From assembly GCF_026162365.1 (NCBI RefSeq), contig NZ_JAOANW010000012.1, positions 1-64,000 on the forward strand: DNA of 64,000 nt. Direction: 5' to 3'. Below are positions 1-14,238 of the stretch, piece after piece. This DNA is from Nitratireductor luteus (GTDB lineage: Bacteria > Pseudomonadota > Alphaproteobacteria > Rhizobiales > Rhizobiaceae). The position numbers and the translations under genes were made by a program. The first letter of the stretch is position 1, and each line of letters starts with the position of its first letter. Below the pieces are notes generated by a model. That model was not told the origin of the DNA, ran no database searches, and saw only the letters and a program-made list of their open reading frames with translations.

Positions 1-1
1 A

Positions 2-49
2 ACCCTCGACGACGAAGGCGTCTTCCTCAACGTTGTCGGAAAGTTTTGA
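2..49 (+). CDS. C-terminal end of an outer-membrane beta-barrel protein (partial)
   Basis: Only the last 15 codons and the stop are in the window. They read TLDDEGVFLNVVGKF and are nearly identical to the end of the ORF stopping at 1450 (TLDDQGLFLNVVGKF). The terminal aromatic residue (Phe) fits an outer-membrane barrel sorting signal. The gene lies upstream of the window, so its size and N-terminus cannot be judged. It is a paralogue, or the parent, of the truncated copy downstream. Confidence 0.6.
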   Translation, partial: TLDDEGVFLNVVGKF

Positions 50-214
50 CCGTGGATAACAATGCGCTTGCCGAAACCATTACCAGCACCTCCCTCGAAC
101 TATCGCCTTGGAGGTCAAAATCCTGCAGCAACGCGGATTGCGAGGGGCTGCATGCGAACATCAACCCAATCCGTGATTTCCGGAAATAGAAGCATCCAAA
201 AAGAGGATTAAGAC

Positions 215-388
215 ATGAGACTGAGCGCGCCAACCGGGATTGTTTTCATTCTATCGGTTATTCTTGCAATATTATCTGTCTTGCCTGTCTTGGGCATATC
301 GGTTCCTGTGGTCGCCGCCTATAGCTATTGGGTGCTGGCTGCTGCCTTTGCCATCCTTGCCGCCGGAAACTTGCTGAAAGGCCTCTAG
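215..388 (+). CDS. Small two-helix membrane protein (57 aa)
   Basis: This ORF starts MRLSAPTGIV and has two clear hydrophobic stretches, roughly residues 8-30 and 32-52, split by a Pro/Gly turn, so it should be a small inner-membrane hairpin protein. An AGAGG Shine-Dalgarno sequence lies at about 202-206, with a good spacing to ATG 215. It ends in NLLKGL and is followed about 120 bases later by a strong rho-independent terminator. I recognise no named family; such tiny two-helix proteins are common in Rhizobiales. Function unknown. Confidence 0.6.
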   Translation: MRLSAPTGIVFILSVILAILSVLPVLGISVPVVAAYSYWVLAAAFAILAAGNLLKGL

Positions 389-511
389 CGCGCCCACGGG
401 CGAATGCGGAGCCGGCGCATTGGTCGGCAGGGCTGTTACCAAAATCTGAGAACGCGATGAGCCTCCCGCTTCGCGGCTCAGACGGCCGGCGCCGGCAAAT
501 TTTGACCGCCT

Positions 512-553
512 GATCTCCCGTCGTGCGGCAACGCGCGGCGGGAGATCTTTTTT
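512..553 (+). terminator. Rho-independent terminator
   Basis: GATCTCCCG (512-520) pairs with CGGGAGATC (539-547) and is followed by a run of seven T. It most likely ends transcription of the small membrane protein gene stopping at 388. Confidence 0.8.
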
Positions 554-654
554 TCGTCGGCGGGTCACTCAGCCGTCGTGGGCGTCCGGTTTGGAAGAAT
601 GCCTGAAAGATCGGCAATTGACGTTTCCTGCACGTTTAAATGAAGGGCGGCTAC

Positions 655-778
655 GCGAACTTTCCACCCTTCCGAGACGCAAGCGAACTTCTCCTTTCCG
701 GCCCGCATCAGCAACCGCGATGGCGTTTCTCAACTTGGCAACATCGATTCCGACAAATGCTTCTCCATAATCTGCCAC
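655..778 (-). pseudogene. IS110-family transposase, N-terminal remnant
   Basis: On the minus strand, a reading frame from a GTG at 778 gives DYGEAFVGIDVAK followed by NAIAVADAGRKGEVR. This is the characteristic start of the DEDD (RuvC-like) catalytic domain of IS110-family transposases, including the first catalytic Asp in GIDVAK. After about 40 residues the similarity stops and the frame turns into low-complexity Arg/Ser sequence. Only a decayed fragment is left, and no IS ends were recognised. It sits between the small membrane gene and a truncated barrel gene, and probably marks a rearrangement point. Confidence 0.7.
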
Positions 779-901
779 GACTCGTCCTCCTGTGGTGATG
801 CCGCGAACGATCGCCACCTGGGAACGCGCAAACCGTTTGTTCCGCGGCTGTGCGGTCATATCTTACGCCCGAAGTAGAGCACGCCAGCAGCGCAGCGGCG
901 G

Positions 902-1450
902 ATGGCGTTGCACGATTATGTCGAGGCCTCCCTCGGCTATGCCTACCGCCCGGTCGACAACGACCGCCTCAACGCGCTGTTCAAATACACCTGGCTCTAC
1001 GACCTGCCGGGCAACAATCAGGTGATCAGCGGTTCCACCGGCGACCTCTTCGCGCCGGCCCAGCGCAGCCACATCCTGTCGGTCGACGCCATCTACGACC
1101 TCACCCCGTGGCTGTCGGTGGGCGGCAAATACGGCTTGCGCACCGGCGAGGTGAAGTACCGCGCCGGCGCCGGCTTCGAGGACGAATGGCAAAAATCCTC
1201 CGCCCATCTCGCCATCCTGCGCGCCGACCTGCACGTCATCAGGAAATGGGATGTCCTGCTCGAGGGCCGCGTCATGCACATGCCCGAGGCCGACACCACC
1301 GACTACGGCGCCCTCGTCGCCCTCTACCGCCATGTCGGCGACAACTTCAAGGTCGGCCTCGGCTACAATTTCGGCAGATTCTCCGACGACCTCAGAGACC
1401 TTACCCTCGACGACCAGGGCCTCTTCCTAAACGTCGTCGGCAAGTTCTGA
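902..1450 (+). pseudogene. Truncated outer-membrane beta-barrel domain (C-terminal part)
   Basis: The frame encodes about 180 residues with alternating hydrophobic and polar beta-strand patterns (EASLGYAYRPVDNDRLNALF, LSVDAIYDLTPWLSVGGKYG, LYRHVGDNFKVGLGYNFGRF) and ends in a terminal Phe, as outer-membrane barrels do. There is no signal peptide and no credible ribosome site at ATG 902. The same C-terminus occurs at 2-49, so this looks like the 3' part of a duplicated, much larger surface or barrel gene that lost its front half. The family appears as the C-terminal barrel of large repeat-rich proteins in alphaproteobacteria (recollection, not checked). Confidence 0.55.
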
Positions 1451-1957
1451 CCGCCAAACTGCCTCCGCCAGCTCAGGAAGATCGACGTTCACCGATGGGT
1501 CCGCCTGCCACCGGCACCCGGGCGGCCGAACCAGGTACGCCATCTCGAGCTTTGTCCTTCGTGCAAGTTTCGGATGGGCACGTACGATGCCGTCGTCTCC
1601 GGCACGGCTCGGAAACCTGCGTCCTGACGACCGGTACCTGGGGTCCCAATCTCAAGCGCCACCAGGCGTAGCGTGTCGCTCAGACCGCTGGGTGGCGCAA
1701 ACCGGCCACGGTCCCATAGGGCGATTATCATGATCGATTGACGTGCTACTATTTCACCCTTGGCGGCAAACGCCCCCGTCATGACGGCACGCTTAGACCA
1801 GATGAGCGCTTTGCGGCGAAGCCGCCACGTAATTTTCCTTGTCGAACAAACGAAGTTTGGAAAGGAAAATGCTTATGGAAAGTGGAGTGCGCCCCTGAGG
1901 GTGGACAGATTGGATTGAGGAATTGACCAGTCTTGTCGGGTTTTCGAAGAGAGAACC
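1451..1957. other. Non-coding, decayed mobile-element sequence
   Basis: No credible gene is seen on either strand. Open frames here have no ribosome site and no recognisable family. The stretch at about 1880-1957, just before the IS3-type start, looks like the terminal region of an insertion sequence, but no matching inverted repeat was found by eye. Confidence 0.4.
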
Positions 1958-2011
1958 ATGGCAAGATATCGCACGCACAGCATCGAATTTAAGCGTCAGG
2001 TCGCCCAGCCA
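1958..2011 (+). pseudogene. Start of an IS3-type OrfA transposase gene
   Basis: ATG 1958 opens MARYRTHSIEFKRQVAQ, the typical first residues of the helix-turn-helix OrfA protein of IS3-like elements. After residue 17 the frame jumps into unrelated sequence that is antisense to an OrfB fragment. Only the first tenth of the gene survives. Confidence 0.65.
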
Positions 2012-2084
2012 TTTCAAGGGTTTGTACAATGCACACAAAATCCTGTAACTCCGCCCACGGCGGCTTGCCGTGGCGGGGGATCAA

Positions 2085-2400
2085 TGCCGTCAGCTTGCGC
2101 GCGACGCGCCGGCCGGAGATGGTCGCGTCGGCAATCCCCCCAGGCAATCGCGCGTCACGTCGTCGACGATGTTGAGCAGGCGGAACCTGCGGCCGCAGGC
2201 GAACTGGTCATGTACGAAGTCCAGCGACCAGCGCGCGTGTGGCCGCGCCTCGACCAGGATCGGTATCCGCGTGCCGACGGCACGCCGGTGTGACCGGTGC
2301 TTGCGCATCGCCAGTCCCTCCTCGTGGTACAGCCGATACGATGCGGTTGATCCCCGATGGCTCGCCCGCGCGCGTCCCTTTTCCCCGGCGGGTGGGGATT
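2085..2400 (-). pseudogene. IS3-family OrfB (integrase) remnant, frameshifted
   Basis: Minus-strand frames carry pieces of an IS3/IS407-type OrfB: GEPSGINRI, then YRLYHEEGLAMRKH in a second frame, then VGTRIPILVEARPHARWSLD and FVHDQFACGRRFRLLNIVDD, which cover the first part of the DDE integrase core, with catalytic Asp in SLDFVHDQ and VDD. At least one frameshift separates these parts, and the C-terminal half is missing. The fragment faces the OrfA start at 1958, so the two cannot be one unrearranged element. Confidence 0.75.
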
Positions 2401-2540
2401 GTGAAGAGCCGCGATGCGGATTTCAGCGGTGTGCGGGCACGTTTTGCCATCATCCGCTGCGTATTCAACCATGCCTTCAGGCTTTTTCGTCCCAACATTA
2501 TCGGACGATTCGCTGGCCGTGCAATCCTCGCTGAATCGCA

Positions 2541-2652
2541 TTGACAACGTAAGACAATCACTGATATGAGCAGAATTCGTAGATGACATCGTGCGACAAT
2601 GATCGGGATACTGTGATTGTTTTCCTGGAGGGAGACTGCGCACCCAAGGCAG
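2541..2652. repeat. 110-bp leader repeat, copy 1 (upstream of aldoxime dehydratase)
   Basis: This stretch, beginning TTGACAACGTAAGACAAT, is about 85% identical to 9913-10018. The main difference is a 6-base gap near the start. Copy 1 leads to the aldoxime dehydratase gene, copy 2 to a FAD/NAD(P)-binding protein gene. Each contains TCGTGCGACAA, whose complement TTGTCGCACGA fits the TNGTNNNACNA pattern of FadR-type GntR operators, and a weaker related site near the start. Each also opens the same short reading frame, MTSCDN. It may be a shared promoter/operator/leader; this is inference. Confidence 0.6.
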
Positions 2653-2738
2653 ACGGGCAGCTCATGCACGATCCGCTGCCGGAAAACACGACGCCGTGCG
2701 GGCCGACGCCCTTGGCGATTCCAACGAGCAGGAGGTAG
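2583..2738 (+). CDS. Small ORF (51 aa) coupled to aldoxime dehydratase
   Basis: ATG 2583 opens a 51-codon frame, MTSCDNDRDTVIVFLEGDCA and onward, ending in Arg-Arg-stop at 2738, eight bases before the aldoxime dehydratase ATG. The last codons AGG AGG supply the Shine-Dalgarno sequence of the next gene, so translation of the two would be coupled. The first 24 residues are shared with a frame at 9949-10065, ahead of another enzyme gene. Differences between the copies are mostly non-synonymous, so a conserved leader rather than a working protein is possible. No family is recognised and no clear ribosome site lies upstream. Confidence 0.4.
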   Translation: MTSCDNDRDTVIVFLEGDCAPKADGQLMHDPLPENTTPCGPTPLAIPTSRR

Positions 2739-2745
2739 TGGCGTA

Positions 2746-3777
2746 ATGGAACCGGCAATCCCTGATCATCTCATCACCGCACGCACACGCCATCCGCGCG
2801 TGCCCGCTGATTACGAGCCGCCATACCCCTCCTTCATGGCGCGGCACGGGCCGTCTGTGAAGACCCTGGTCATGGCCTATTTCGGCGTGCAGTTCCGGGC
2901 CAGCGACGGGGCCGCTGCCAAAGGCCCGCTGGCCGCCATCGCCGCGTCCTTCACCGCAGAGGACGGGCCGGGCCATTGGGACCGTGCCGCCTATACGGAC
3001 GAGCAGGGTTTCTCCAATGTCATTTCCATCGCCTACTGGGACCATACCGCCAGTTTCGAGCGCTGGTTCTCCACTTACGGGACCGCTTGGTCCGGTGACG
3101 ATACAGCCGACGCGCGGCTGGGCTTCTTCACCGAAATTCTGAAACCGAGCGTCGAACGCTACGAGACCCTGTTTTCGGCGCCCGACCGAGCTGAGGGCGT
3201 TGCCGTAATCGCAGAGGGCATGAGCGGCATGGTGCGCGAGCACGCCTATTGGGGCGGCATGCGCGACCGAATCCCTCTGTCGCAAACAGATGCGATGGAG
3301 CCCACAGGTGCCCCGCGCATCGAGGAGGAGGGCGGACTCCTGCGCGTCATTCCGCACGACAACATCTGTCTCATCCGCTCCGGCCAGGACTGGACGGATA
3401 CGGACCCGGAAGAGCGGCGCATGTATCTAGAGGAGGTCGAGCCGGTGCTTAAGGCCGGCATGGACTTCCTGCGCGACGAAGGCCTGTCCTGCGGTTGCTT
3501 CGCAAACCGCTATATGCGCGTGGTCGATGAGGCGGGCAGGCCGGTGGAGAAGTCCTTCGGCATGAGTTGGTGGAAGAGTCTGGCCCAACTCGAGCGCTGG
3601 TCGGAATTCCATCCAACACATGTCGCTATCTTCGGTGCTGCAATGAAGTATCTGTCCAGGTTGGGGCCCGCCGCCAAGCTGCGCCTATATCATGAGGTGA
3701 CGGTCGCGACCGCTGATCAGCAGTTCTTCGAGTACAGGAACTGCCACCCCAAGACCGGCATGCTCAAGGCGGGCTGA
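2746..3777 (+). CDS. oxd: Aldoxime dehydratase (heme enzyme)
   Basis: This 343-residue protein matches the aldoxime/phenylacetaldoxime dehydratase family (usual length about 350) along its whole length: EHAYWGGMRDRIPLSQTD, HDNICLIRSGQDW, YLEEVEPVLKAGMDFLRDEG, HPTHVAIFG, LRLYHEVTV and FEYRNCHPKTGML. These cytoplasmic heme b enzymes dehydrate aldoximes directly to nitriles. By homology to OxdA/OxdRE, His292 (second His of HPTH) is the proximal heme ligand and His316 (YHEV) the catalytic distal His; the loop between them is three residues longer than in those enzymes. ATG 2746 was chosen because GGAGGT lies 9 bases upstream and the sequence MEPAIPDHL aligns with the family start. No nitrilase, nitrile hydratase or amidase gene accompanies it in this window. 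Its neighbours are IS remnants, which suggests acquisition by transfer. Confidence 0.9.
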   Translation: MEPAIPDHLITARTRHPRVPADYEPPYPSFMARHGPSVKTLVMAYFGVQFRASDGAAAKGPLAAIAASFTAEDGPGHWDRAAYTDEQGFSNVISIAYWDHTASFERWFSTYGTAWSGDDTADARLGFFTEILKPSVERYETLFSAPDRAEGVAVIAEGMSGMVREHAYWGGMRDRIPLSQTDAMEPTGAPRIEEEGGLLRVIPHDNICLIRSGQDWTDTDPEERRMYLEEVEPVLKAGMDFLRDEGLSCGCFANRYMRVVDEAGRPVEKSFGMSWWKSLAQLERWSEFHPTHVAIFGAAMKYLSRLGPAAKLRLYHEVTVATADQQFFEYRNCHPKTGMLKAG

Positions 3778-3895
3778 GTTCCACGTCAGGATTCGTATTA
3801 GAAGCGGCGAATTGATGGTTGCGCCCGTTGCTGCCGTTCATGGCCGCTTCTGCCGATCCAAAGGTAAAGAGCACGTGCCGCCGCCGAATAGCTCC

Positions 3896-4045
3896 TCAGC
3901 AGCCTAGCTTCTCATTGGGCACGCGGTGCCAGGCGTTATCTATTGCGGCTACCGCGTGGTAACTTGATCTGCGATCAAGCCTCTCCTGATGATGCTGGAG
4001 TTTGGCATCAGCAATATTGCCCGTGCGGAGCCTACCGTCGACCGG
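3896..4045 (-). pseudogene. C-terminal remnant of a FAD/NAD(P)-binding protein
   Basis: The minus strand reads LRTGNIADAKLQHHQERLDR and onward to a stop at 3896. This is clearly homologous, in frame, to the end of the intact protein at 10190-11728 (LRTGHIADAILKHHRERRDR). Upstream of this tail the similarity is lost and the sequence runs into the region downstream of the DUF736 fragment. It is therefore the tail of a second, mostly deleted copy, facing the aldoxime dehydratase gene. The 3778-3895 gap before it holds nothing recognisable. Confidence 0.65.
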
Positions 4046-4158
4046 CGCGACGATCAGCATCGGCATCGGTGTCGGAAAGGCTGGAACGCCTATTCCGGCT
4101 TCCTTATACGCAGGAGAAACCCCGCCTTGGGGCTGGGTCCCTCGCCGGGGCGATCAGT

Positions 4159-4315
4159 CCCGGTTGGGTCGGGACCAGATCAGCTGCAGGCCTTCCTCGC
4201 CTTCCACCTCGATCAGGGTGGCGTAGATCGGAGCGGCGAAGCTCAGGTCGTCCAGCTTGACCGAGAGATAGTCGCGGCCCTCGTTGGAGACCTTCTGCCA
4301 AGCGGCGCCGAGTTC
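4159..4315 (-). pseudogene. DUF736 protein, C-terminal half (gene split by insertion)
   Basis: The minus-strand frame [53 protein letters not shown] and a stop is the second half of a DUF736 protein, a small family found on Rhizobiales plasmids and integrative elements. The first half lies at 7009-7161 on the same strand. Joining 4315 directly to 7009 restores AANV-ELGAAW without a gap, so a 2693-bp segment has gone in between. Confidence 0.85.
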
Positions 4316-4421
4316 GGCTTTGGACTAAGCCGCTCCTCCTCGCACGTTGTCCGCCTTAAGCCCGAGCGTCCTTTGGTCTATGTTGTTCTGTGACCTGGAA
4401 CCTGGAGCGTGAGTTGCGACG

Positions 4422-6860
4422 TTGGTGGATGAAAAGGATGTTTCGAAGGAAGTCGCGCGCATTCGGCAGCGGCTAGCCGACCTGGATGTGGAGCGGACGG
4501 CGCTTACGCGCGAATTGGAAGCGCTGGAGCAAACACGGATTTCCGATAACGGTGCCGCCGGACAGCCCTCTTTTGCCGATGCCCCTGTCACCAACAACTC
4601 GTCATCGGCCGAGAAGATCGTGCTGTTCCGCCGTCTGTTTGCTGGGCGCCCAGATGTCTTTCCGGTTCGATGGGAAAACAGAAAGACGGGAGGTTCGGGA
4701 TATTCGCCGGCATGCTCGAACGAGTGGGCGAAGGGGATTTGCGGCAAGCCGAAGGTGAAATGTGGAGAATGCCCACATCAGGCATTCATCCCGCCATCCG
4801 AGGAGATCATCGAAAAGCATCTGCGCGGCGGCGATGCCCGCTCGGGTGACTTTGTCGCCGGGGTGTATCCATTGCTGCAAGACGAGACATGCTGGTTCCT
4901 CGCCGCCGACTTCGACAAGGACAGCTGGGCGGACGACGCCAGGGCCTTGCTCGATACCTGTCATGCGAAAGGAATCGACGCCGGCCTGGAGCGGTCGAGG
5001 TCAGGGAATGGTGGCCATGTCTGGATATTCTTCTCCGAACCTGTGCCGGCAAGGGCCGCCAGGCAGTTGGGCTCGGCTCTGATCACGGAGACGATGGAGA
5101 AGCGCCCAGAGATCGGCTTCACTTCCTATGATCGCTTCTTTCCCAATCAGGACACGATGCCCCTTGGGGGCTTTGGCAATCTGATTGCACTGCCGTTGCA
5201 GAGGAAGGCACGCGAGAGCGGCAACAGCGCTTTTGTCGACAAGAACCTGCGGCCTTACGACGACCAATGGGCGTATCTGTCGTCCCTGCCCAGGCTATCG
5301 GCGGACATGGTCTTCCGCATCGCGGACGAGGCGGAGCTGTCGGGCCGGGTCTTGGGCGTCCGTATGCCGGTCGACGACGAACATGCCGACGAGCCGTGGA
5401 AGATGTCGCCGTCGCGTCGCAGCGCGCCACGGCGTATTGAGGCTGCGATCCCGCGGAACATCAAGATCGTGGTCGCCGATCAGGTTTACATCGACAGGGC
5501 AGAACTTCCGCCGGCTCTGATTGCGCAGCTTGTTCGTCTGGCAGCTTTCCAAAACCCGGAGTTCTATCGTGCCCAGGCCATGCGGTTGCCGACATTCGGA
5601 AAGCCTCGGGTTGTCTCATGCGCCGAGCTCTATCCCCAGCATGTCGCTCTACCTCGGGGTTGCCTCGAGGAAGCAATCGATCTCATCAAAAGCCATGGCG
5701 CCGTTGCCGATCTGGAAGATTGTCGTGAAATCGGCACGGCACTTCCTGCGACCGTTTCCTTCCAGGGCGAATTACGACGGCCGCAGTTGAGGGCTTTCGA
5801 TGCTCTTGCTACCCATGAAAACGGTGTGCTTGCCGCGACAACCGCGTTTGGCAAGACGGTTGTCGCGGCGGCGCTCATTGCGCACCGTGCGCGAAACACG
5901 CTCATCCTCGTCCATCGACGGGAGTTGCTCAATCAATGGGTGGAACGTCTACGATCGTTCATGAGCATAGACCCGATGCAGATCGGCGCTATCGGTGGCG
6001 GGAAAAGAAAGCCGACGGGCATCATCGATGTCGCGCTCATCCAGAGCCTCGTCCGCAAGGGGGAGGTGGCGGACCTCGTCGCCGATTACGGCCATCTGAT
6101 CGTCGACGAATGCCATCACTTGTCCGCGGCAAGCTTCGAGCTTGTCGCTCGGCGGTCGAAAGCGCGGTATGTCGTGGGTCTGTCCGCGACCGTTGCCCGA
6201 AAGGACGGACATCATCCCATCATCTTCATGCAATGTGGCCCTGTCCGCCATCGGGTCGATGCGCGGATTCAGGCAGCCGAGCGCGGCATGCGCCATCGTG
6301 TGCGCGATCGGTCGACGAAATTTGAATTGCCTCCGTCCCTGGCCTCGGCCGAGCGACCCTCGATGCCTGCGATCTATGCGGCTTTGGCTCAGGACGATGG
6401 CCGGAATGATCTGATCTTCGATGATGTGCTGAAGTCGCTCGAGGCCAAGCGTTCGCCTGTCGTTCTAACCGAGCGGAAGGATCACCTCGACTATCTTCGG
6501 CAGCGGTTCTCACCCTTCGTGAAGAATCTCGTCGTGCTGCGCGGTGGCATGTCTGCGGGCGATCGCAAAATGGCCGACGCGGCGATACGGGTATCGGAGG
6601 ATCAGGAGCGCCTGATCCTCGCGACAGGCCGCTACATCGGCGAAGGCTTCGATGACGCTCGCCTCGATACGCTGTTCCTGACGATGCCAATCGCCTGGAA
6701 GGGGACTTTGGCGCAATATGTCGGCCGCCTGCATCGCGAGTATGACGGAAAAAGGGATGTCCTGGTCGTGGACTATGTCGATCAGGCTGTGCCGGTTCTC
6801 GCTCGGATGGCCGCGAAACGCCGCGCGGGCTATCGTGCGCTGGGCTACGTTCTTGAATAG
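4422..6860 (+). CDS. TOTE-type archaeo-eukaryotic primase fused to SF2 helicase
   Basis: The protein has 812 residues if started at TTG 4422 (GTG 4425 is also possible; the ribosome site is weak). Residues 8-37 are a predicted coiled coil. Residues about 63-300 match the AEP primase-like domain that databases name after TOTE conflict systems: cysteine cluster C98, C107, C114, C117, acidic pair D163/D165 in AADFDKD, and H199 in SGNGGHVW. Residues about 445-812 are a DEAD/DEAH-type helicase: Walker A with GKT at 477-479, DECH at 562-565, SAT at 588-590, then ATGRYIGEGFDD and QYVGRLHRE in the second RecA domain. All motifs are intact, so an active nucleic-acid polymerase/helicase is plausible. 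Family literature proposes roles in element-host conflict. It sits alone inside a disrupted DUF736 gene. Confidence 0.85.
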   Translation: MVDEKDVSKEVARIRQRLADLDVERTALTRELEALEQTRISDNGAAGQPSFADAPVTNNSSSAEKIVLFRRLFAGRPDVFPVRWENRKTGGSGYSPACSNEWAKGICGKPKVKCGECPHQAFIPPSEEIIEKHLRGGDARSGDFVAGVYPLLQDETCWFLAADFDKDSWADDARALLDTCHAKGIDAGLERSRSGNGGHVWIFFSEPVPARAARQLGSALITETMEKRPEIGFTSYDRFFPNQDTMPLGGFGNLIALPLQRKARESGNSAFVDKNLRPYDDQWAYLSSLPRLSADMVFRIADEAELSGRVLGVRMPVDDEHADEPWKMSPSRRSAPRRIEAAIPRNIKIVVADQVYIDRAELPPALIAQLVRLAAFQNPEFYRAQAMRLPTFGKPRVVSCAELYPQHVALPRGCLEEAIDLIKSHGAVADLEDCREIGTALPATVSFQGELRRPQLRAFDALATHENGVLAATTAFGKTVVAAALIAHRARNTLILVHRRELLNQWVERLRSFMSIDPMQIGAIGGGKRKPTGIIDVALIQSLVRKGEVADLVADYGHLIVDECHHLSAASFELVARRSKARYVVGLSATVARKDGHHPIIFMQCGPVRHRVDARIQAAERGMRHRVRDRSTKFELPPSLASAERPSMPAIYAALAQDDGRNDLIFDDVLKSLEAKRSPVVLTERKDHLDYLRQRFSPFVKNLVVLRGGMSAGDRKMADAAIRVSEDQERLILATGRYIGEGFDDARLDTLFLTMPIAWKGTLAQYVGRLHREYDGKRDVLVVDYVDQAVPVLARMAAKRRAGYRALGYVLE

Positions 6861-6864
6861 TGGC

Positions 6865-6918
6865 GCCCCGCTGTCCGCGGCGCCCCGCCATGTTGCGAGG
6901 CGCCGCGGACAGCGGGGC
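6865..6918. repeat. Perfect 20-bp inverted repeat after the primase-helicase stop
   Basis: GCCCCGCTGTCCGCGGCGCC (6865-6884) is exactly complementary to 6899-6918, with a 14-base loop. It begins 4 bases after the TAG of the preceding gene. It could terminate transcription, although no T run follows, or it could be a structural end of the insertion. Confidence 0.85.
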
Positions 6919-6922
6919 CGTT

Positions 6923-7008
6923 ATTATGCGGAGCGACACAGCGACAAAACCCAGAAAAGCCGGGGCCGTCAGCTCGCGACTCCGCATAATCCCGCGCTAC
7001 GCATAATC
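6923..7008. repeat. Subterminal ATTATGCG/CGCATAAT motifs at right end of the insertion
   Basis: ATTATGCGGAG (6923-6933) and its exact complement (6980-6990) form an 11-bp inverted repeat. CGCATAAT recurs at 7000-7007, immediately inside the junction with DUF736. Repeated short sites next to an element end are typical of recombinase-binding sites. The match to any given recombinase is inference. Confidence 0.6.
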
Positions 7009-7161
7009 GACGTTGGCGGCAGCGAAGATGCGGAAATGCGGGCCCTTGTCGGAGGGGTTCTCGACGCGAACCAGTTTGACTTTGACTTTGACGTTGAGGT
7101 TGAGGGTCTTGGTCGAACCGGTAAAGCTGCCCGTAGAAGTGAAGGTGCCGATGGTAGCCAT
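7009..7161 (-). pseudogene. DUF736 protein, N-terminal half (gene split by insertion)
   Basis: From ATG 7161 on the minus strand the frame reads [20 protein letters not shown], then [19 protein letters not shown] and AAANV, the standard first half of DUF736 proteins. Without the insertion it would continue with the segment at 4315-4159 to give a protein of about 103 residues. In the present arrangement it runs into element sequence and stops after three codons (Asp-Tyr-Ala-stop). Confidence 0.85.
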
Positions 7162-7292
7162 GTGTCTCATTCGTGCGCCAAGAGTGACGGCTGGAATCCG
7201 TCACGCGCACTTGTTGCCCCTGCGGGGTGGGAAACCCTGCCGCCAACGTGCCGCAAGCACGGGGGTTGAAGCAGACGGGTGAGGTAAACCGG

Positions 7293-9428
7293 GTGCCTCC
7301 GGCGAGCCATAAATAAGCAGAACCCGTCAAAGTCGGGTGGCCCGGGACTTCCGTCCGTGGCCGGTCCGGCAAGCATGCCTGCTACGGGAAGAGTGATCGA
7401 ACCGATGTTTGAAGCCTCGTTGCAACATGGAGCCTGCCAAACCGGAAGTGGGCAGGCCGGTCGAAAGGCCGGAGGAGCGCCGATCCCCGCTGGATTACCG
7501 GGGATCAGGGGCGTGCGCGATCGCGCACGTCAACCAACGGCCCAGCTTGCGGTGGCCGGAATCCTCACGGGGTAGAGTCGGTCCCTAAGGCAGGCGAAGG
7601 GACATCGGGTGAACTTGGGAACCTTGCTGCGTTCTCTCACGCTAAACGGCGCGAGATGATCGAGGCGACCGATGATCGGCGCAGCAGGGGGCGGAGTCTT
7701 CGTAGTAGTCCGAGGGCGGGAAAGCCGTCCACATGGCGAAGGGAGACAGTGGGTGGAGCAAGCCGGCAGGAGGTGGGTCGATGAAGCCCAATGCGGTGAA
7801 TACCGCGTTCGTCCTCGACATGCAGCGCAAGCTTCACAGGTGGAGTGTCGCGGATGCCGACAAGGTGTTCGCGGATCTGTTCAACATCGTAGGCGACCGC
7901 AGGACGCTTTCGGAAAGCTGGCGTCGGCTGACCCGCAACAGGGGCAGCCGCACACCGGGAACCGATGGTGTCACGCGGAAGACGGTCGAAGAGCGGCCGG
8001 GCGGCGCGGCACAGTTCATTGAGGATATCCGCGAGGAACTGCGCAGTGGCACCTATCGGCCCGAGCCTGTCCGGCAAAGGCTGATCCCCAAGCCGGGCAA
8101 ACCCGGCAAGGTGCGTCCACTCGGCATTCCGACGCTCAAGGACCGACTGGTGCAAATGGCTTTGAAGCTCGTGCTGGAGCCGATTTTCGAGGCGGACTTC
8201 TATCCGACCTCCTACGGCTTCCGGCCCGGCCGGAGCACCCATGATGCGCTGGCTAAAATCCAGCGGCGACTGCACCCCTCGTCAAGCGGCACCTCCGAGT
8301 ACCGCTTCGTGATCGAGGGCGACATCAAGGGCTGCTTCGATGCTGTCGATCATCATGTGCTGATGGAGCGGGTACGCCGCCGCATCGGGGACCGTAAGGT
8401 TCTCGGGCTCGTACTCGCCTTCCTGAAGGCCGGGTCATGATCGAGGGCTCCGTCCGTCACCCTGTCACGGGTACCCCGCAGGGCGGCATCATCTCGCCGT
8501 TGCTGGCCAACGTCTATCTGGCGGCCATCGACGAGAGATACGGACGGTGGTCGATGCGTCCTCGCGAGCGACCGCAGAATGCAGCCGACCGGCGGCTATA
8601 TGACCGCCGGAGAAATAGGCCGACATTCTTCGCCGTGCGTTATGCTGACGACTTTGTCGTGCTGACGGACGGGACGCGCGAGGAAGCAGAAGCCGAAAAG
8701 CTGGCGCTGGCGCAGTTCCTCGAAACGGAATTGCGCATGGAGCTGTCGATGGAGAAGACCAGGATCACGCAAGTCGGGGAAGGCTTCGACTTCCTCGGCT
8801 ATCGGGTGGTGCAGACCAAGGCACGCCGCACCGGTAATATGGTCGGCAATCTCTTCATTCCGAAGAGCAAGCTGAAGGACTTGCGCTACAAGATCAAGGT
8901 CAGGGTGAAGGAGACGCCGACAGGCCAATCCCTTGCCAATCTCATCGACGATCTCAACCCGGTCATCACCGGCTGGCGAAACTATTACCGTTACGCCACA
9001 TGGGCCACGCGGGACTTCGCCGGTCTGGATTGGTGGCTATGGGAGCGCATCGGGCGATGGCTGCGCAGGAAGCATCCTAAGGCGACGTGGCAATCACTGC
9101 GCCGCCGCTTCCTTGCAACAGCGCCTGACAGCCGCTGGCGATGGGTCGACGGACCGAAATCGCTGCGGTTCTTCCGGGAAGGCGGATCGCTCCGCTTCCC
9201 GCACCGGGGCATACGCATACCGAACGGATGGAACAATCCCAACGAGAAGTTCCGAAAAGGGGCCGATCGCTTCTGGGTATCGTTCAACACCCTCATGGTC
9301 GCATGAGGGCCACCCGTGGCGAAAGCCGCGCATGGAGAGCCGGAGGCTTGGAAACTTGCACGCCCGGTTCGGCGAGAGGGGCGCAGAAACCACCTGCCGC
9401 AAGGCAGGCAGGCGCTGTGCTCCTACTC
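7293..9428 (+). mobile_element. Group II intron
   Basis: An intron-encoded reverse transcriptase/maturase gene (7733-9306) lies in a longer GC-rich structured sequence. At about 9336-9376 there is a domain V-like hairpin, with arms starting GAGCCGGAGGCTTGG and ending GCACGCCCGGTTC, followed by a domain VI-like hairpin and the end CTCCTACTCTAC. The 5' end is uncertain; I place it at the GTGCC near 7293, while a GTGCG at 7513 is an alternative. The intron is inserted between DUF736 upstream sequence and IS3 debris. Confidence 0.7.
7733..9306 (+). pseudogene. ltrA: Group II intron reverse transcriptase/maturase, one frameshift
   Basis: The first frame (7733-8440) carries the RT palm start: LIPKPGKPGKVRPLGIPTLK, DRLVQMALKLVLEPIFEADF, YPTSYGFRPGRSTHDAL and EGDIKGCFDAVDHH. 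The second (8437-9306) carries GTPQGGIISPLLANVYL, the catalytic YADD box and the maturase domain LNPVITGWRNYYRY. Family members read KAGVMIEG across the join, so one G has been lost from the run at about 8429-8431, giving a -1 frameshift and an ATGA overlap. No endonuclease domain is seen. The two halves cannot give a normal enzyme unless the ribosome shifts frame or the base is a sequence error. Confidence 0.9.
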
Positions 9429-9674
9429 TACCCTTGTTTGTCGGGCCGCGCATATCGCGACCTTGATGACGGTCGATGGATCGGAGGCGATCGACTGGCA
9501 CCCCGACAGGGGCTGGAACGAAGTGGAAGGCGGCCGGGAGCGGCTTCTTGATCCGCGCGGAATGGCGGCGCAGCCGCCAGGAAAGCCGTGCAGACCGTTG
9601 CCGGGACAAGATCGAGAGACCGCCAGTGCGGGATCGGCCTTCGGTCAGATCAGTCACATCGAGGAAACAGCGGA
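9429..9674. other. Sequence between intron and IS3 remnant, no gene seen
   Basis: Open frames exist on both strands but none has a ribosome site or a family I recognise. It is probably the continuation of whatever the intron entered. Confidence 0.35.
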
Positions 9675-9912
9675 AACAGGAATGAAGACCGGCGTTCCGT
9701 CATCGGCGTCACCGCCACACGACGGCCACCGCGATGCTGCGGTCGGAGGGGTGGACGGTGAATGCCAAGCGCGTCGAGCGGATCTGGCGGCGGGAGGGGC
9801 TGAAGGTTCCCCAAAAGCAAACGAAGAAGGCAGGCTGCGGCTGAATGACGGATCATGCGTCCGGCTCCGGCCCGAGCATCCCAATCATGTCTGGTCCTAT
9901 GACTTCGTCGAG
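9675..9912 (+). pseudogene. IS3-family OrfB remnant
   Basis: In two plus-strand frames one reads RSEGWTVNAKRVERIWRREG followed by LKVPQKQTKKA, and then, after a frameshift, LNDGSCVRLRPEHPNHVWSY and DFVE. This is the linker and first catalytic Asp region of IS3-family OrfB. The similarity stops at 9912, exactly where copy 2 of the 110-bp leader repeat begins. Confidence 0.75.
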
Positions 9913-10018
9913 GTTGACAACGTAGGACAATATGAGCAGAATTCGTATATGACATCGTGCGACAATGTACGGGATGTTGTTATTGTTTTCCGGAGGGGAG
10001 ATTGCGCATCCAAGGCAG
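9913..10018. repeat. 110-bp leader repeat, copy 2
   Basis: This is the second copy of the element at 2541-2652 and starts TTGACAACGTAGGACAAT. It again contains TCGTGCGACAA and the MTSCDN frame. It leads to the FAD/NAD(P)-binding protein gene. Confidence 0.6.
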
Positions 10019-10065
10019 AATACGGCGGTGTTCTACGTGAAGCAAACGAACTATCCGGTGTTTGA
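9949..10065 (+). CDS. Small ORF (38 aa), paralogue of the one before oxd
   Basis: The frame begins MTSCDNVRDVVIVFRRGDCA and ends at TGA 10065. The first 24 residues align without gaps to the small ORF at 2583-2738; the tails differ. Here the following gene starts 124 bases further on, so tight coupling is absent. It could be a remnant of a leader or of a tiny protein. No known family. Confidence 0.3.
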   Translation: MTSCDNVRDVVIVFRRGDCASKAEYGGVLREANELSGV

Positions 10066-10189
10066 GCGGCTATCGCTTTGAAGGTTGGGTGGCTCAGTCG
10101 GTCTGGGGAGACCGGCGGTTGGGAATAGGGGAGACATAGCGCGATCGCGACTTGACCATCGGGTGGCTGTCCACCGAAGGGGGTCATCA

Positions 10190-11728
10190 ATGCACGATGC
10201 TACTGCGCTGTCGATTGCCGTTATTGGAGCCGGACCGACGGCCGTCGCCGCACTCGAAAGCCTTATCCACTCGCGCAACATCATCGGCCCCGACGTGCCG
10301 CTGGACGTGACTGTGTTCGACCCGTCGCCGCATCCCTGGTGCGGCCATAGCTTTGCTTCCGATCGGCCCGAGGCGCTAACGAATACCTACACGAGCGACA
10401 TGTCCGTGCGTCATTGGCAGCCAGAGCATGTGGGTTTCTGGCTCAAGGCGACTGGCAATGCAGAATTCGCAGGCAACAATTTCGCGCCGCGTTCCCTTAT
10501 CGGCCAGTATTTCAAGGAGTCTGCCCAGCAAGCAGCTTCGAGACTGGGAGGCTTCGTGTTCATTCGCGAGCAGGTCACGGGTGTGGCGGTCATCGACGAT
10601 CGCGCGCGCGTGCACACGCAGAACGGAGGCTTCCCCTTCGATTATGCAATCTTGTCCGTGGGCCGTTCAGACAAGTTCGATCCGTACGGATTGGAGGGTC
10701 AGGAGAACTTCTGCATCCGACCGTATCCCTTGAAGGATGCCCTGGCCGGTGTGGATCCTGACGAACACATAGGGATCATCGGCACCGGACTGACCGCGGT
10801 TGATTTGGTCATGGCCTTGAAGGCGGACAAGCATCGCGGCCGAATTACGCTTTTCTCCAGAAACGGTCTGCTGCCTGCGGTGCGCCCGCCGTCGCTCAAT
10901 TACGAACTGCAGCGTTTCACGGTCAAGGGCATTGAGGATATAGCCGCAGCGAAGGGCGGGCTCACTTTGGAGGACATCGTACACCTCGTCCACGAGGAGC
11001 TCGACCACGCCTGCACATCTCCGGAACCTCTTACAGAAGAGATTTTTCCAACACGCTACGGGATCGACCGGTTGCGGCACCAACTGATGCATATCGATGA
11101 TGGCAGAAAGGCCTATTCGATTTTAATCAAGACGCTCCTGGTCCTCCAGGACGCATGGTATTTCCTGAACCCGGCGGATAAAGCGCGCGCGGCTGGCTTT
11201 CGGCACATTTACTGCAGTCTATGCTGTCCCATGCCGCGATTCCGTGCGGCGCAGCTGCTCGGCCTCGCCGAGGCGGGCCAACTTGACGTTGTCCGTGGAG
11301 TAAGGTCGATGGCCAAGGATGCGAGCGGTCAATTTGTCGCTGTCGCAGCGGACCATCCACCGCTCCACTTCGACAGAGTTTTCTCCGCCGGCTCCAGTGG
11401 GACTGAGCCCGACCCCATGGCCATCCCGCTCGTCAACAGCCTGCTGCGGTCCGGACAGGGGCGTGCGCATCCCGTCGGAGGTCTCGCCATCGAACGCACC
11501 ACCAGTCGGCTCCTGGATGTCCACAGCCGCCCACAGCCGCGCCTTTATGCGGTGGGCACGATGACGAGCGGAGCATTTCAGGTCTTGAACGGGTACTCCG
11601 TACTCAGGCTGCGCACGGGCCATATTGCCGACGCCATACTCAAGCACCACCGGGAGAGGCGTGATCGCAGATCAAGGCACCGCGCCGAAGCCCTGACTGA
11701 GGACGCCCTGGGGCGGCGGCATCCCTAG
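10190..11728 (+). CDS. FAD/NAD(P)-binding oxidoreductase-like protein
   Basis: The protein has 512 residues, counted from ATG 10190, which is preceded by AAGGGGG. Residues about 7-25 (LSIAVIGAGPTAVAALESL) form an N-terminal dinucleotide-binding GxGxxG motif, and FDPSPHPWCGHSF follows. A second motif, IGIIGTGLTAVDLVMAL, lies near residue 205. This is the layout of the FAD-NAD(P)-binding family (NAD_binding_9 type), whose members are mostly uncharacterised flavoproteins. The C-terminal ATMTSGAFQV-like region (VGTMTSGAFQVLNGYSVL) is also typical. A decayed second copy of its tail lies next to the aldoxime dehydratase gene, and both genes share the same upstream repeat. The two may once have formed one functional unit, but the substrate is unknown. 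Confidence 0.75.
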   Translation: MHDATALSIAVIGAGPTAVAALESLIHSRNIIGPDVPLDVTVFDPSPHPWCGHSFASDRPEALTNTYTSDMSVRHWQPEHVGFWLKATGNAEFAGNNFAPRSLIGQYFKESAQQAASRLGGFVFIREQVTGVAVIDDRARVHTQNGGFPFDYAILSVGRSDKFDPYGLEGQENFCIRPYPLKDALAGVDPDEHIGIIGTGLTAVDLVMALKADKHRGRITLFSRNGLLPAVRPPSLNYELQRFTVKGIEDIAAAKGGLTLEDIVHLVHEELDHACTSPEPLTEEIFPTRYGIDRLRHQLMHIDDGRKAYSILIKTLLVLQDAWYFLNPADKARAAGFRHIYCSLCCPMPRFRAAQLLGLAEAGQLDVVRGVRSMAKDASGQFVAVAADHPPLHFDRVFSAGSSGTEPDPMAIPLVNSLLRSGQGRAHPVGGLAIERTTSRLLDVHSRPQPRLYAVGTMTSGAFQVLNGYSVLRLRTGHIADAILKHHRERRDRRSRHRAEALTEDALGRRHP

Positions 11729-11884
11729 CCAGTGCCGAAGTTGAGCCTTGTTGGCATACAGGGTTGAGAAGGCGGCAAGTATGAGTTGGTTCACGTGGTT
11801 CTTTTCGATGAATCGGGGGATGTCCTCGGCGCAAACGGAACCCTTTGGCACTGGAGATAGCGAGTTCGTGCCGCCTAGCCTGTC

Positions 11885-12125
11885 TCAAGAGCGGGCAAAA
11901 GTCACTGTGCCCGGCACTCATCCCGACCGAGGAGACCGAGCCGGGGCAGGGAAAGCAGCATGACGTGGAGATCCTCGCATCCTTGCCGGGAGTGGGAAGG
12001 ATCGTCCTCGCCACGTTGCTTGCAGAAGCCTTCGATGCCCTGCAGCGACGTGACTACGCCGCTTTGCGCAGTTTGGCAGGAGTCGCGCCGGTCACCAAGC
12101 GGTCGGGCAAGAGTTGCTTAGGCGG
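11885..12125 (+). pseudogene. IS110-family transposase, C-terminal remnant
   Basis: The plus frame EETEPGQGKQHDVEILASLP, GVGRIVLATLLAEA and RRDYAALRSLAGVAPVTKRS is the helix-hairpin-helix (Transposase_20) half of an IS110 transposase. The N-terminal RuvC-like half is missing, and the C-terminal end runs into unrelated sequence. It is on the opposite strand to the N-terminal remnant at 655-778, so they are separate relics or were rearranged. Confidence 0.8.
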
Positions 12126-12230
12126 CAATCGCGATTTCCAGCAAGTTCGCCGGCAATGTCAGCTTACAACGGGAAGGTTCACCTCTACGGTCGCCATGGG
12201 GGCGCAGAGGCGCCCTTTCCGCTCAAATGT

Positions 12231-12476
12231 TCACGCGCCGTCACTACGCCGTGCAAGCCGCACGCCGGGGCCGCCGCCGTTCTCAGGAATGAACTCGATT
12301 CCGGCCGCTTCGAGTGAGAGCACGAGAGCCTGAACGATTGATGCGGACGCCGGTTTTGAACCACGCTCGATCTGCACGATCGTTCGCAAACTAACCTTCG
12401 ATAAATCCGCCAACTCCTGCTGAGAAATGTCGAGAAGCCCGCGGGCCGCACGGATTTGAGATGGGGTCACTTCCAT
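12231..12476 (-). CDS. XRE-family transcriptional regulator (81 aa)
   Basis: From ATG 12476 the protein reads MEVTPSQIRAARGLLDISQQ, with a complete helix-turn-helix (QQELADLSKVSLRTIVQIE) at residues about 19-38. The C-terminal signature GIEFIPENGGGPGVRL is common to many short Rhizobiales XRE regulators, so the gene appears full length. It is divergent from the gene at 12599, with a 17-bp imperfect inverted repeat at 12493-12509 over the shared promoter. It probably controls its own expression and that of the 12599 operon. Confidence 0.85.
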   Translation of the reverse strand: MEVTPSQIRAARGLLDISQQELADLSKVSLRTIVQIERGSKPASASIVQALVLSLEAAGIEFIPENGGGPGVRLARRSDGA

Positions 12477-12492
12477 TACTCTGTATTGTCCG

Positions 12493-12522
12493 TTGCGCAA
12501 AAAGTGCAAATATGCTTATAAT
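12493..12522 (+). promoter_or_regulatory. Divergent promoter with probable XRE operator
   Basis: On the plus strand TTGCGC (12493-12498), an 18-base spacer and TATAAT (12517-12522) form a strong sigma-70 type promoter for the gene at 12599. TTGCGC-AAAAA-GTGCAA (12493-12509) is an imperfect inverted repeat over the -35 element. On the minus strand TTGCAC (12509-12504) could serve as the -35 for the regulator gene. The layout suggests repression by the adjacent XRE protein. Confidence 0.6.
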
Positions 12523-12598
12523 GTGAAGCGGCTGCTGAAGGTGTCGTTACCATCGCCAGCAGCCTGACCACAATCCAAGCTGTAAGGGAGCTCGGATC

Positions 12599-13345
12599 AT
12601 GGATGATTCGGACGATACCACGACTTTGCCTTCCGTCACCCGCAGGCATTTGCTGGTAGGCACGATGGCGACAACGGCCGCGTGGCCGTTGCAGGAGGGA
12701 GCGGCGATTGCCGGCACGCTGGCCAGTAACCCTTCCTTCGACCCGGCGCTTTCGCTCTGGCATGAATGGAAGGCCGCCTATCTCCACACCGCCGCCCTGT
12801 GCCGCAAGCAGCAGCGTTTGGAAACGAAGCTGGTCGGCCGCGTCGGCTTCCCTCAAGCGGACGTCTATCTGCCAGACGAAGACGTCACCGTCACGGTCTC
12901 CTGGCTCGGGGACATCGAGGAGCTGTTGGGCGACGATCCCGCGCTGGCCGACATTCGTGCCCAGGCGGAAGCCGATCTCGCCGCCCATCAGGCGCGCTGG
13001 GACGATGCCGATGCTCAGATCGGCTATTCCGCCGCCAAACGGGAAGAGCAGGACGCATCCGACCGCGAGCAAGATTTGTTCGATAGCCTGACCCACACGC
13101 CGGCCACCTCGCTTTCTGGTGTGGCCGGCAAGCTCGATGCCATCCTGCGCGAGGGCGAGAGCTGGGAGGACTGCTCCGACTTCCCCTGGCCGCAGGTGCG
13201 CTCGGCGCTCGTCGATGTCGTGCGCATCGGGCAGGCGCTGCAGCCTGATGCCTTCATGCCGGGCAGCGAGCGCACTGGACCGTATCAGCGCCGCCACAGG
13301 GACGGCAGCTGCTTTCGGGTCTGGAAGGCTCCAGAGGGGAGCTGA
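12599..13345 (+). CDS. Hypothetical protein with Tat-like signal
   Basis: The protein has 248 residues. Near the N-terminus, residues 15-34 read RRHLLVGTMATTAAWPLQEG, a short twin-arginine-like export segment, although the Tat consensus beyond RR is weak. The rest is acidic and helix-rich (residues about 95-165, AEADLAAHQARWDDADAQIG), with no domain I recognise. It heads a run of three small genes that leads to the serine recombinase and is driven by the promoter at 12493-12522. Similar proteins occur beside recombinases in Rhizobiales islands (recollection). Function unknown. Confidence 0.7.
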   Translation: MDDSDDTTTLPSVTRRHLLVGTMATTAAWPLQEGAAIAGTLASNPSFDPALSLWHEWKAAYLHTAALCRKQQRLETKLVGRVGFPQADVYLPDEDVTVTVSWLGDIEELLGDDPALADIRAQAEADLAAHQARWDDADAQIGYSAAKREEQDASDREQDLFDSLTHTPATSLSGVAGKLDAILREGESWEDCSDFPWPQVRSALVDVVRIGQALQPDAFMPGSERTGPYQRRHRDGSCFRVWKAPEGS

Positions 13346-13349
13346 AGCC

Positions 13350-13574
13350 ATGGCCCGCCAAAAGCCTGACGCCCTCGATACCGAACTCACGCTCTGGGAC
13401 CTCGCCGATCCTGAGGAGGCGGCCGCGGCGGCGCGTGATCTTTATGGCCCCGCCGCAGCCACTGCTGCCGCATCGGCCGCCTTTACCGCCCGCTATGCCG
13501 GACGGGAGGCAGACTTCCGTTTCTGGTTTGAAGTGTTCGTCAAGCTGTCTGCCGATCATGGACGGATCTCGTAA
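13350..13574 (+). CDS. Small hypothetical protein (74 aa)
   Basis: ATG 13350 lies 4 bases after the preceding stop, and its ribosome site AGGGGAG is inside the end of that gene, so the two are surely cotranscribed. The protein is rich in Ala and acidic residues in its first two thirds and ends FRFWFEVFVKLSADHGRIS. No domain is recognised. Its constant position next to the Tat-like hypothetical gene and the recombinase points to a role in the element, but nothing more specific can be said. Confidence 0.6.
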   Translation: MARQKPDALDTELTLWDLADPEEAAAAARDLYGPAAATAAASAAFTARYAGREADFRFWFEVFVKLSADHGRIS

Positions 13575-13968
13575 TCGCATTGCACCCTCGTTCCCACTAG
13601 GTTTCGGGAAAACGGCCTTGTCTGCTTGAGGGGGAGCAAGCCGGAACGCGAACCAGCCCGTCAAGGCCGTAGCCGCTTCCCGGTGGTGCATATCGCACCA
13701 GCCTGGACCGGCTGGTTCCGGCCCGGCAAGGGCTTGGGAAGCAGACAAGGGATTGGTGGGCGCGCTGGCGCTCCACGCGTGAGGGCGAGCGGTGGCCGAT
13801 TCGCCCGCTAAGAGGAGAGGAAGCGGCATTGGCGATGAGAGCTTCCCAGAACATACAACGCCCTATGCACCTTTATGTACCCGCCAGAACGACACGATGA
13901 AGATTCTGCTTTGAAGCCGCCGGTTGCCGGTGTTTCCTGCCTAAACGCACAGCGTGTTGGAGAACGGC
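13575..13968. other. Intergenic stretch, no gene seen
   Basis: Frames on both strands lack ribosome sites or look like low-complexity Arg/Gly shadows. I see no terminator or tRNA. The 3' part (about 13800-13930) is less GC-rich and may hold regulatory sequence for the next operon. Confidence 0.4.
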
Positions 13969-14226
13969 ATGGAAGACGAAGCCAAGTTCGAACGGGAAGA
14001 CATCGGTCAGCCGGCCAACGACAACCACAGGCCAGCGCAAGAGGATGATGAGGACGCCGACATTGCACCCTGGCAGCGGGTGGACAGGGTGGTCCTGAGC
14101 ATCGCCCGGCTGATCGGCCGCGATCTCGCCCGCGAGCACTTCGAGGCTCTGCAGGCGGCCAACGACAATAGGCGCCCGGCAGAAGAGGCAAAGGGCCACG
14201 GTCCGAAGGGCAGGGAAGAAGGATAG
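13969..14226 (+). CDS. Small acidic hypothetical protein (85 aa)
   Basis: ATG 13969 was chosen over GTG 13954 because GGAG lies at the right distance. The protein begins MEDEAKFEREDIGQPANDNH. It contains two copies of an ANDNxRPA motif (residues about 15-22 and 65-72), on either side of a predicted helix, DRVVLSIARLIGRDLAREHF. The next gene starts 12 bases after its stop, so it is cotranscribed with the serine recombinase and could be an accessory factor such as a directionality factor. That role is a guess from position. Confidence 0.6.
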   Translation: MEDEAKFEREDIGQPANDNHRPAQEDDEDADIAPWQRVDRVVLSIARLIGRDLAREHFEALQAANDNRRPAEEAKGHGPKGREEG

Positions 14227-14238
14227 GGAGAAAGCTCC

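Follow-up and report, generated by a model that had tools for sequence, protein, structure and literature searches.

The locus considered here raises the question of how an aldoxime dehydratase gene came to lie behind a stretch of upstream DNA that recurs in front of other genes, and of what that stretch does there. The window (the whole stretch of DNA that was analysed) comprises positions 1 to 64,000 of contig NZ_JAOANW010000012.1 of Nitratireductor luteus, and coordinates given without a contig refer to it. The oxd gene at positions 2746–3777 (+) encodes 343 amino acids, and its identification as an aldoxime dehydratase in the first-pass annotation is borne out by homology: the product matches PF13816 along the entire profile (positions 1–310 of 310; E 7e-87, 292 bits against a cut-off of 25) as well as the solved Oxds 3a15 (E 4e-96) and 3w08 (E 4e-95). 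Its score with the NCBIfam OxdA equivalog model is 395.7, under the cut-off of 600, and membership of the exact OxdA type is therefore not claimed. Residues R175, S212, H292 and H316 align with R178, S219, H299 and H320 of OxdRE, the haem-ligand His and the catalytic Arg, Ser and His of that enzyme; since these are kept, the enzyme is probably active. A probable ribosome site for oxd, AGGAGG, lies at 2730–2735 (+). The alignment with the oxd gene of C. alearense, a second Chelativorans species, begins at 2716, and the stretch 2716–2745 (+) before the start codon, possibly the tail of a nitrilase gene, does not align significantly with C. alearense DNA when taken alone (913 of 5000 shuffles reach its score). 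Behind oxd, an inverted remnant of the 3′-end of a FAD gene was found at 3931–4033 (−), in which 3947–4033 matches 11692–11606 at 83% and 3931–4031 matches the C. alearense locus L031 (G001:C6) at 77%.

The repeat of about 110 bp reported in the first-pass annotation at 2541 and 9913 is real: within the 64-kb window, 2541–2653 matches 9914–10019 with 83% identity over 113 columns (E 4e-28). A whole-genome search added a third copy outside the window, where 2541–2651 matches G000:C44:5718–5828 with 91% identity, so that the 4.9-Mb genome contains three copies, located upstream of oxd, upstream of the gene for a FAD/NAD(P)-binding protein and on contig C44; a fourth full copy is present in C. 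alearense (G001). The copies stand before genes, as expected of the leader segment that the repeat had been proposed to be. Among 101 genomes, with the source genome counted, three match the leader, the full leader being confined to the source genome and C. alearense, and the downstream half alone was matched at two further places in C. alearense and at one in a third genome, G008; a 361-bp query around the oxd leader found matches in two of the 16 genomes of the genus. Several matches start at one and the same base, the TTGACA at 2541, and their right-hand ends differ. The flank upstream of this base (2375–2540, +) is common to the lacI/FAD intergenic region of C. alearense (contig C23), with which 2375–2656 shares 78.8% identity over 283 columns (locus L012) or, by another search, 81% over query positions 7–257; the oxd copy and the C. 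alearense copy thus have a further 166 bp in common. A match on contig C42 to leader-query positions 128–171 (82%, E 4e-5) falls within a long open frame, that of a gene taken by eye for pyruvate carboxylase, and was for this reason attributed to chance.

The copies are not of equal extent. The copy before the FAD gene (9913–10163, +) and that on C44 share approximately 250 bp, more than the oxd copy has in common with either, and the segment before oxd (2541–2651, +) corresponds to the upstream half alone. The downstream half, which five FAD leaders have in common with the C44 leader and which the oxd copy lacks, bears a conserved 5′-UTR hairpin with a 7-bp stem (10097–10116, +), in which all seven pairs are retained in five of the six sequences and six of seven in the sixth. 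We regard the 110-bp repeat as the probable promoter half of a leader, one that stands before FAD/NAD(P)-binding genes and, in the case of C44, before a gene for a DUF11-repeat protein. Rfam searches of seven loci at E up to 1, and of window positions 1–16000 at gathering scores, found no leader RNA family and gave one match each, to a group II intron. The group II intron of the window occupies 7733–9431, with its maturase split into two overlapping frames (7733–8440 and 8437–9306) and the Rfam match at 9335–9431. Also between oxd and the FAD gene lies a gene for an 812-residue protein (4422–6860) with TOTE-type primase and helicase domains (PF22548, PF04851), and a large serine recombinase (PF00239, PF07508, PF13408) is encoded at 14239–16119.

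The four leader copies precede oxd and a PF13454 FAD gene in the window, a FAD gene in C. alearense and the DUF11-repeat protein gene on C44. The window FAD gene (10190–11728, +) encodes 512 amino acids, and its first-pass description as a FAD/NAD(P)-binding protein agrees with its match to PF13454 (E 1e-27). A search of the PDB gave no sequence relative of this protein at E 0.001, and its AlphaFold model, with a pLDDT of 37.5, is too poor for use. Behind the C. alearense leader, 118 of the 512 residues are matched, from which this FAD gene is probably truncated; three near-full-length paralogues and a shorter fourth match occur in the same genome. The C. alearense leader is divergent from a LacI gene, which is followed by genes for a solute-binding protein, a permease and a GH32 protein, and the C44 leader, before the gene for a 1458-residue DUF11-repeat protein, likewise lies divergently to a LacI gene and cluster that resemble those of C. 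alearense. On C44, the DUF11-repeat protein gene (L014, 1171–5547) adjoins the LacI/sugar/GH32 cluster, and an ABC transporter gene (12171–13685) lies on the far side of the cluster.

At the point where the leader breaks off before oxd, the DNA continues as a scrap of a nitrilase gene (2650–2690, +). Positions 2652–2690 matched a nitrilase in a tblastn search of the window and five loci (77% of 13 amino acids, with an E of 0.08 alone), and 2650–2683 matched the nitrilase gene adjoining oxd in genome G119 in a blastn search against four loci (85% of 34 bp, E 1e-5). The encoded DGQLMHDPLPEN, aligned with DGQLMHEPLPED of the G119 nitrilase, scores 60, which none of 2000 shuffles reached (best 37). 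This piece is short, at 12–13 amino acids, and the shuffle test was run after it had been spotted; it is convincing because it stands directly before oxd. The following stretch, 2691–2745, is not significantly similar to nitrilase (673 of 2000 protein shuffles and 1179 of 5000 DNA shuffles reach its score); the claim of a nitrilase remnant is therefore limited to the 12–13-residue piece, and the size of any loss is a matter of inference. At the join, the leader, the nitrilase and the window have the four bases CAGA in common. Longer and better-scoring matches of the G119 nitrilase in the window (e.g., 53275–53607, 31%, E 0.008) were taken to belong to other carbon-nitrogen hydrolase-like genes and were set aside.

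A nitrilase gene is a frequent neighbour of oxd elsewhere. When 14 oxd loci outside the source genome and C. alearense were scanned with the G119 nitrilase, with a flank of approximately 1.5 kb each, seven had a nitrilase next upstream of oxd on the same strand (L019, which is that of G119, L020, L021, L023, L024, L042 and L051); it lies downstream in L025, a partial match near the edge was obtained in L026, and none was found at five (L022, L027, which has a partial oxd match only, L043, L049 and L050). At two oxd loci on plasmids, nitrile hydratase genes take the place of the nitrilase. No intact nitrilase gene stands beside the window oxd, where the scrap is the sole trace, and within the genus nitrilase matches are at best 34–38% identical and lie on other contigs, in three of 16 genomes. 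In PMC8955678, a probable nitrilase gene is placed upstream of oxd in Bacillus and Bradyrhizobium, and this account together with the seven of 14 loci suggests that the window arrangement probably derives from a nitrilase-oxd operon. Likeness to such operons consists in a PF13816 Oxd and a nitrilase trace upstream; in the window, however, the nitrilase is reduced to a scrap, the upstream DNA is a leader that is also found at other genes, and no AraC-type NitR came to notice at the oxd locus.

With moderate confidence, we consider it probable that a rearrangement fused half of the leader to what remained of a nitrilase gene, placed oxd under a foreign promoter and left a 51-codon frame across the join as a by-product. 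The starting state would have been a nitrilase-oxd operon; illegitimate recombination, with CAGA at the join, would have connected the half-leader with the nitrilase remains, most of the nitrilase gene being deleted and a FAD-type leader gained. Transcription would then begin at the captured leader promoter, on which a sugar regulator of the LacI type would probably act, and the resulting oxd transcript would be devoid of the hairpin part and would probably be translated from its own AGGAGG at 2730. Promoter capture accompanied by gene loss is an already known kind of event, and a narrow literature search found no paper that pairs Chelativorans with aldoxime. Deletion-born fusion genes (PMC12803068) resemble the proposed case in that an open frame arises from distant pieces joined around a deletion; unlike in those genes, the frame in the window extends over a promoter segment and a scrap, and is known here from DNA sequence.

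An alternative, proposed in the first-pass annotation, is that the leader defines an aldoxime/nitrile regulon in which oxd and the FAD enzyme are co-regulated as one pathway, the FAD enzyme making or handling the aldoxime and Oxd making the nitrile. A connection between the two genes, as that annotation had proposed, does seem to exist. In C. alearense, whose Oxd is 79% identical, a FAD paralogue (82% identity) on the same strand as oxd starts 69 bases beyond the stop codon of oxd, and the TAG inside the match is the paralogue's own stop, because its 518-codon frame is unbroken. Furthermore, both species show oxd linked to DNA of a FAD gene, each through a join of its own: in the window oxd follows the leader; in C. 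alearense, where neither a leader nor any nitrilase piece was detected before oxd, the 5′ part of a FAD gene (83% over 148 bp) stands there. This link may reflect a functional tie or a recombination hot spot. Nevertheless, a regulon delimited by the leader is not supported: the leader stands before oxd in one of four copies, it is absent before the C. alearense oxd, and it is also found before the DUF11-repeat protein gene at a sugar locus, a LacI gene and sugar cluster lying beside two of the four copies. In addition, the FAD protein has no assigned reaction, and among 301 relatives its gene occurs in three at E 1e-30, one of which (G008) has no oxd match. A leader-defined regulon is therefore judged unlikely.

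Less likely again is a true regulatory leader peptide, in which translation of the small frame beginning MTSCDN would regulate oxd, and likewise the FAD gene, through translational coupling or attenuation. The frame opens in all four copies, with 51 codons before oxd, 38 before the FAD gene, 38 on C44 and 29 in C. alearense; both window copies start ATG ACA TCG TGC GAC AAT and share, as had been noted, one frame, which runs uninterrupted for 23 codons. The last codons before oxd, AGG AGG (2730–2735), do lie at the expected place of the oxd ribosome site, in agreement with the first-pass annotation, and the stop ends 7 bases before the ATG at 2746; the frame (2583–2738, +) has 51 codons there, not 24. 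In favour of a peptide, the C44 frame, after approximately 15 codons out of register, returns to the frame and to the same stop as the FAD copy, and in C. alearense, where a 2-base loss ends the frame at codon 29, the same downstream frame stays open. Against it, indels disturb the frame in these two of the four copies, and the codon changes give no sign of constraint: the 23 codons of the window copies comprise 16 identical, 2 synonymous and 5 non-synonymous, and the last 18 codons give synonymous to non-synonymous ratios of 3:5 (FAD–C44) and 0:3 (FAD–C. alearense). No obvious ribosome site is seen on reading the sequence upstream of the MTSCDN start, the C. alearense oxd has no leader, and the version before oxd is a chimera, in which approximately 23 leader codons are followed by the nitrilase scrap (2652–2687) and an unassigned tail. 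The leader frame thus appears to have no peptide function, and the 51-codon version, probably not a gene, most likely arose by accident when the pieces were joined.

Transposition, by which a mobile repeat or the end of an insertion sequence would have landed before genes, is very unlikely: several matches do start at the TTGACA at 2541, a transposase-type fragment (HTH_21; PF13276, E 3e-7), assigned to IS3, lies shortly before copy 2 at 9719–9841 (+), and the DNA upstream of copy 1 appears transposase-like, but the genome contains only three copies, the oxd and C. alearense copies share 166 bp beyond 2541, the right-hand ends differ, and neither a plasmid collection searched with a 331-bp leader query nor viral contigs searched for an exact 19-base leader core gave a match. 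The pattern that the first-pass annotation had named as contrary to its own reading, a repeat located mainly at the ends of insertion sequences, was not observed.

If promoter capture is accepted as the preferred reading, the captured promoter would bring its regulation with it. The leader starts with TTGACAACGTNNGACAA, which, with up to one mismatch allowed, was found at five places in the source genome, C. alearense and G008, all of them exact; these are the four leaders and the gap between lacI and the transporter genes of C. alearense, 11 bases after lacI. A reversed-pattern control gave 0, 0 and 1 matches (the one in G008), and at equal base frequencies approximately 0.03 exact matches, or 1.3 with one mismatch, are expected; as the four leaders represent a single duplicated segment, independent support amounts to one place only. 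In the corresponding gap of the source genome, only TTGACAACGT of this 17-mer is kept, and both gaps contain a second palindrome, TTGTCATAGGACAA. The element at 2541–2557 (+), TTGACAACGTAAGACAA, may comprise a putative −35 box and, overlapping with it, a putative operator of the LacI type, a function suggested by the distribution of the motif; a promoter scan preferred position 2583 to the TTGACA at 2541. LacI-family sugar-utilisation loci with divergent target genes are a known kind of arrangement, which a leader divergent to a LacI gene beside genes for a solute-binding protein, a permease and a GH32 protein resembles, with the difference that the same promoter segment also stands before oxd, at a distance from that LacI gene; neither oxd nor the window FAD gene has an identified LacI gene as a neighbour. 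Because two of the four leader copies are divergent to a LacI gene, LacI control is favoured as the best regulatory hypothesis, and the sugar of the adjoining uptake cluster is probably fructan or sucrose, given the GH32 gene. The GntR-type site proposed earlier fares otherwise: TCGTGCGACAA is indeed present in both window copies and fits the GntR-like pattern TNGTNNNACNA, but this pattern occurs in the window at chance frequency (5 matches against 5.48 expected from shuffles) and therefore carries no weight.

Taken as a whole, the first-pass annotation was right about the leader segment and, it seems, about a connection between oxd and the FAD gene, and its peptide, GntR site and leader-defined regulon were not upheld. 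A far-reaching extension, to which we give little credence, is that in Chelativorans oxd was rewired on two occasions, through two different joins to leader or coding DNA of a FAD gene, and both times lost its nitrilase; the outcome would be a pair of FAD enzyme and Oxd, under the control of sugar, for which the nitrile is an end product that is not degraded. The locus would provide a readable case of operon rewiring, in which the pathway partner of an enzyme gene is lost, a foreign promoter is acquired and the join leaves an open frame resembling a leader peptide, a warning against interpreting short shared frames as peptides. It also yields a concrete hypothesis, namely that a LacI-type sugar regulator may control an aldoxime dehydratase together with its possible partner, a FAD enzyme.
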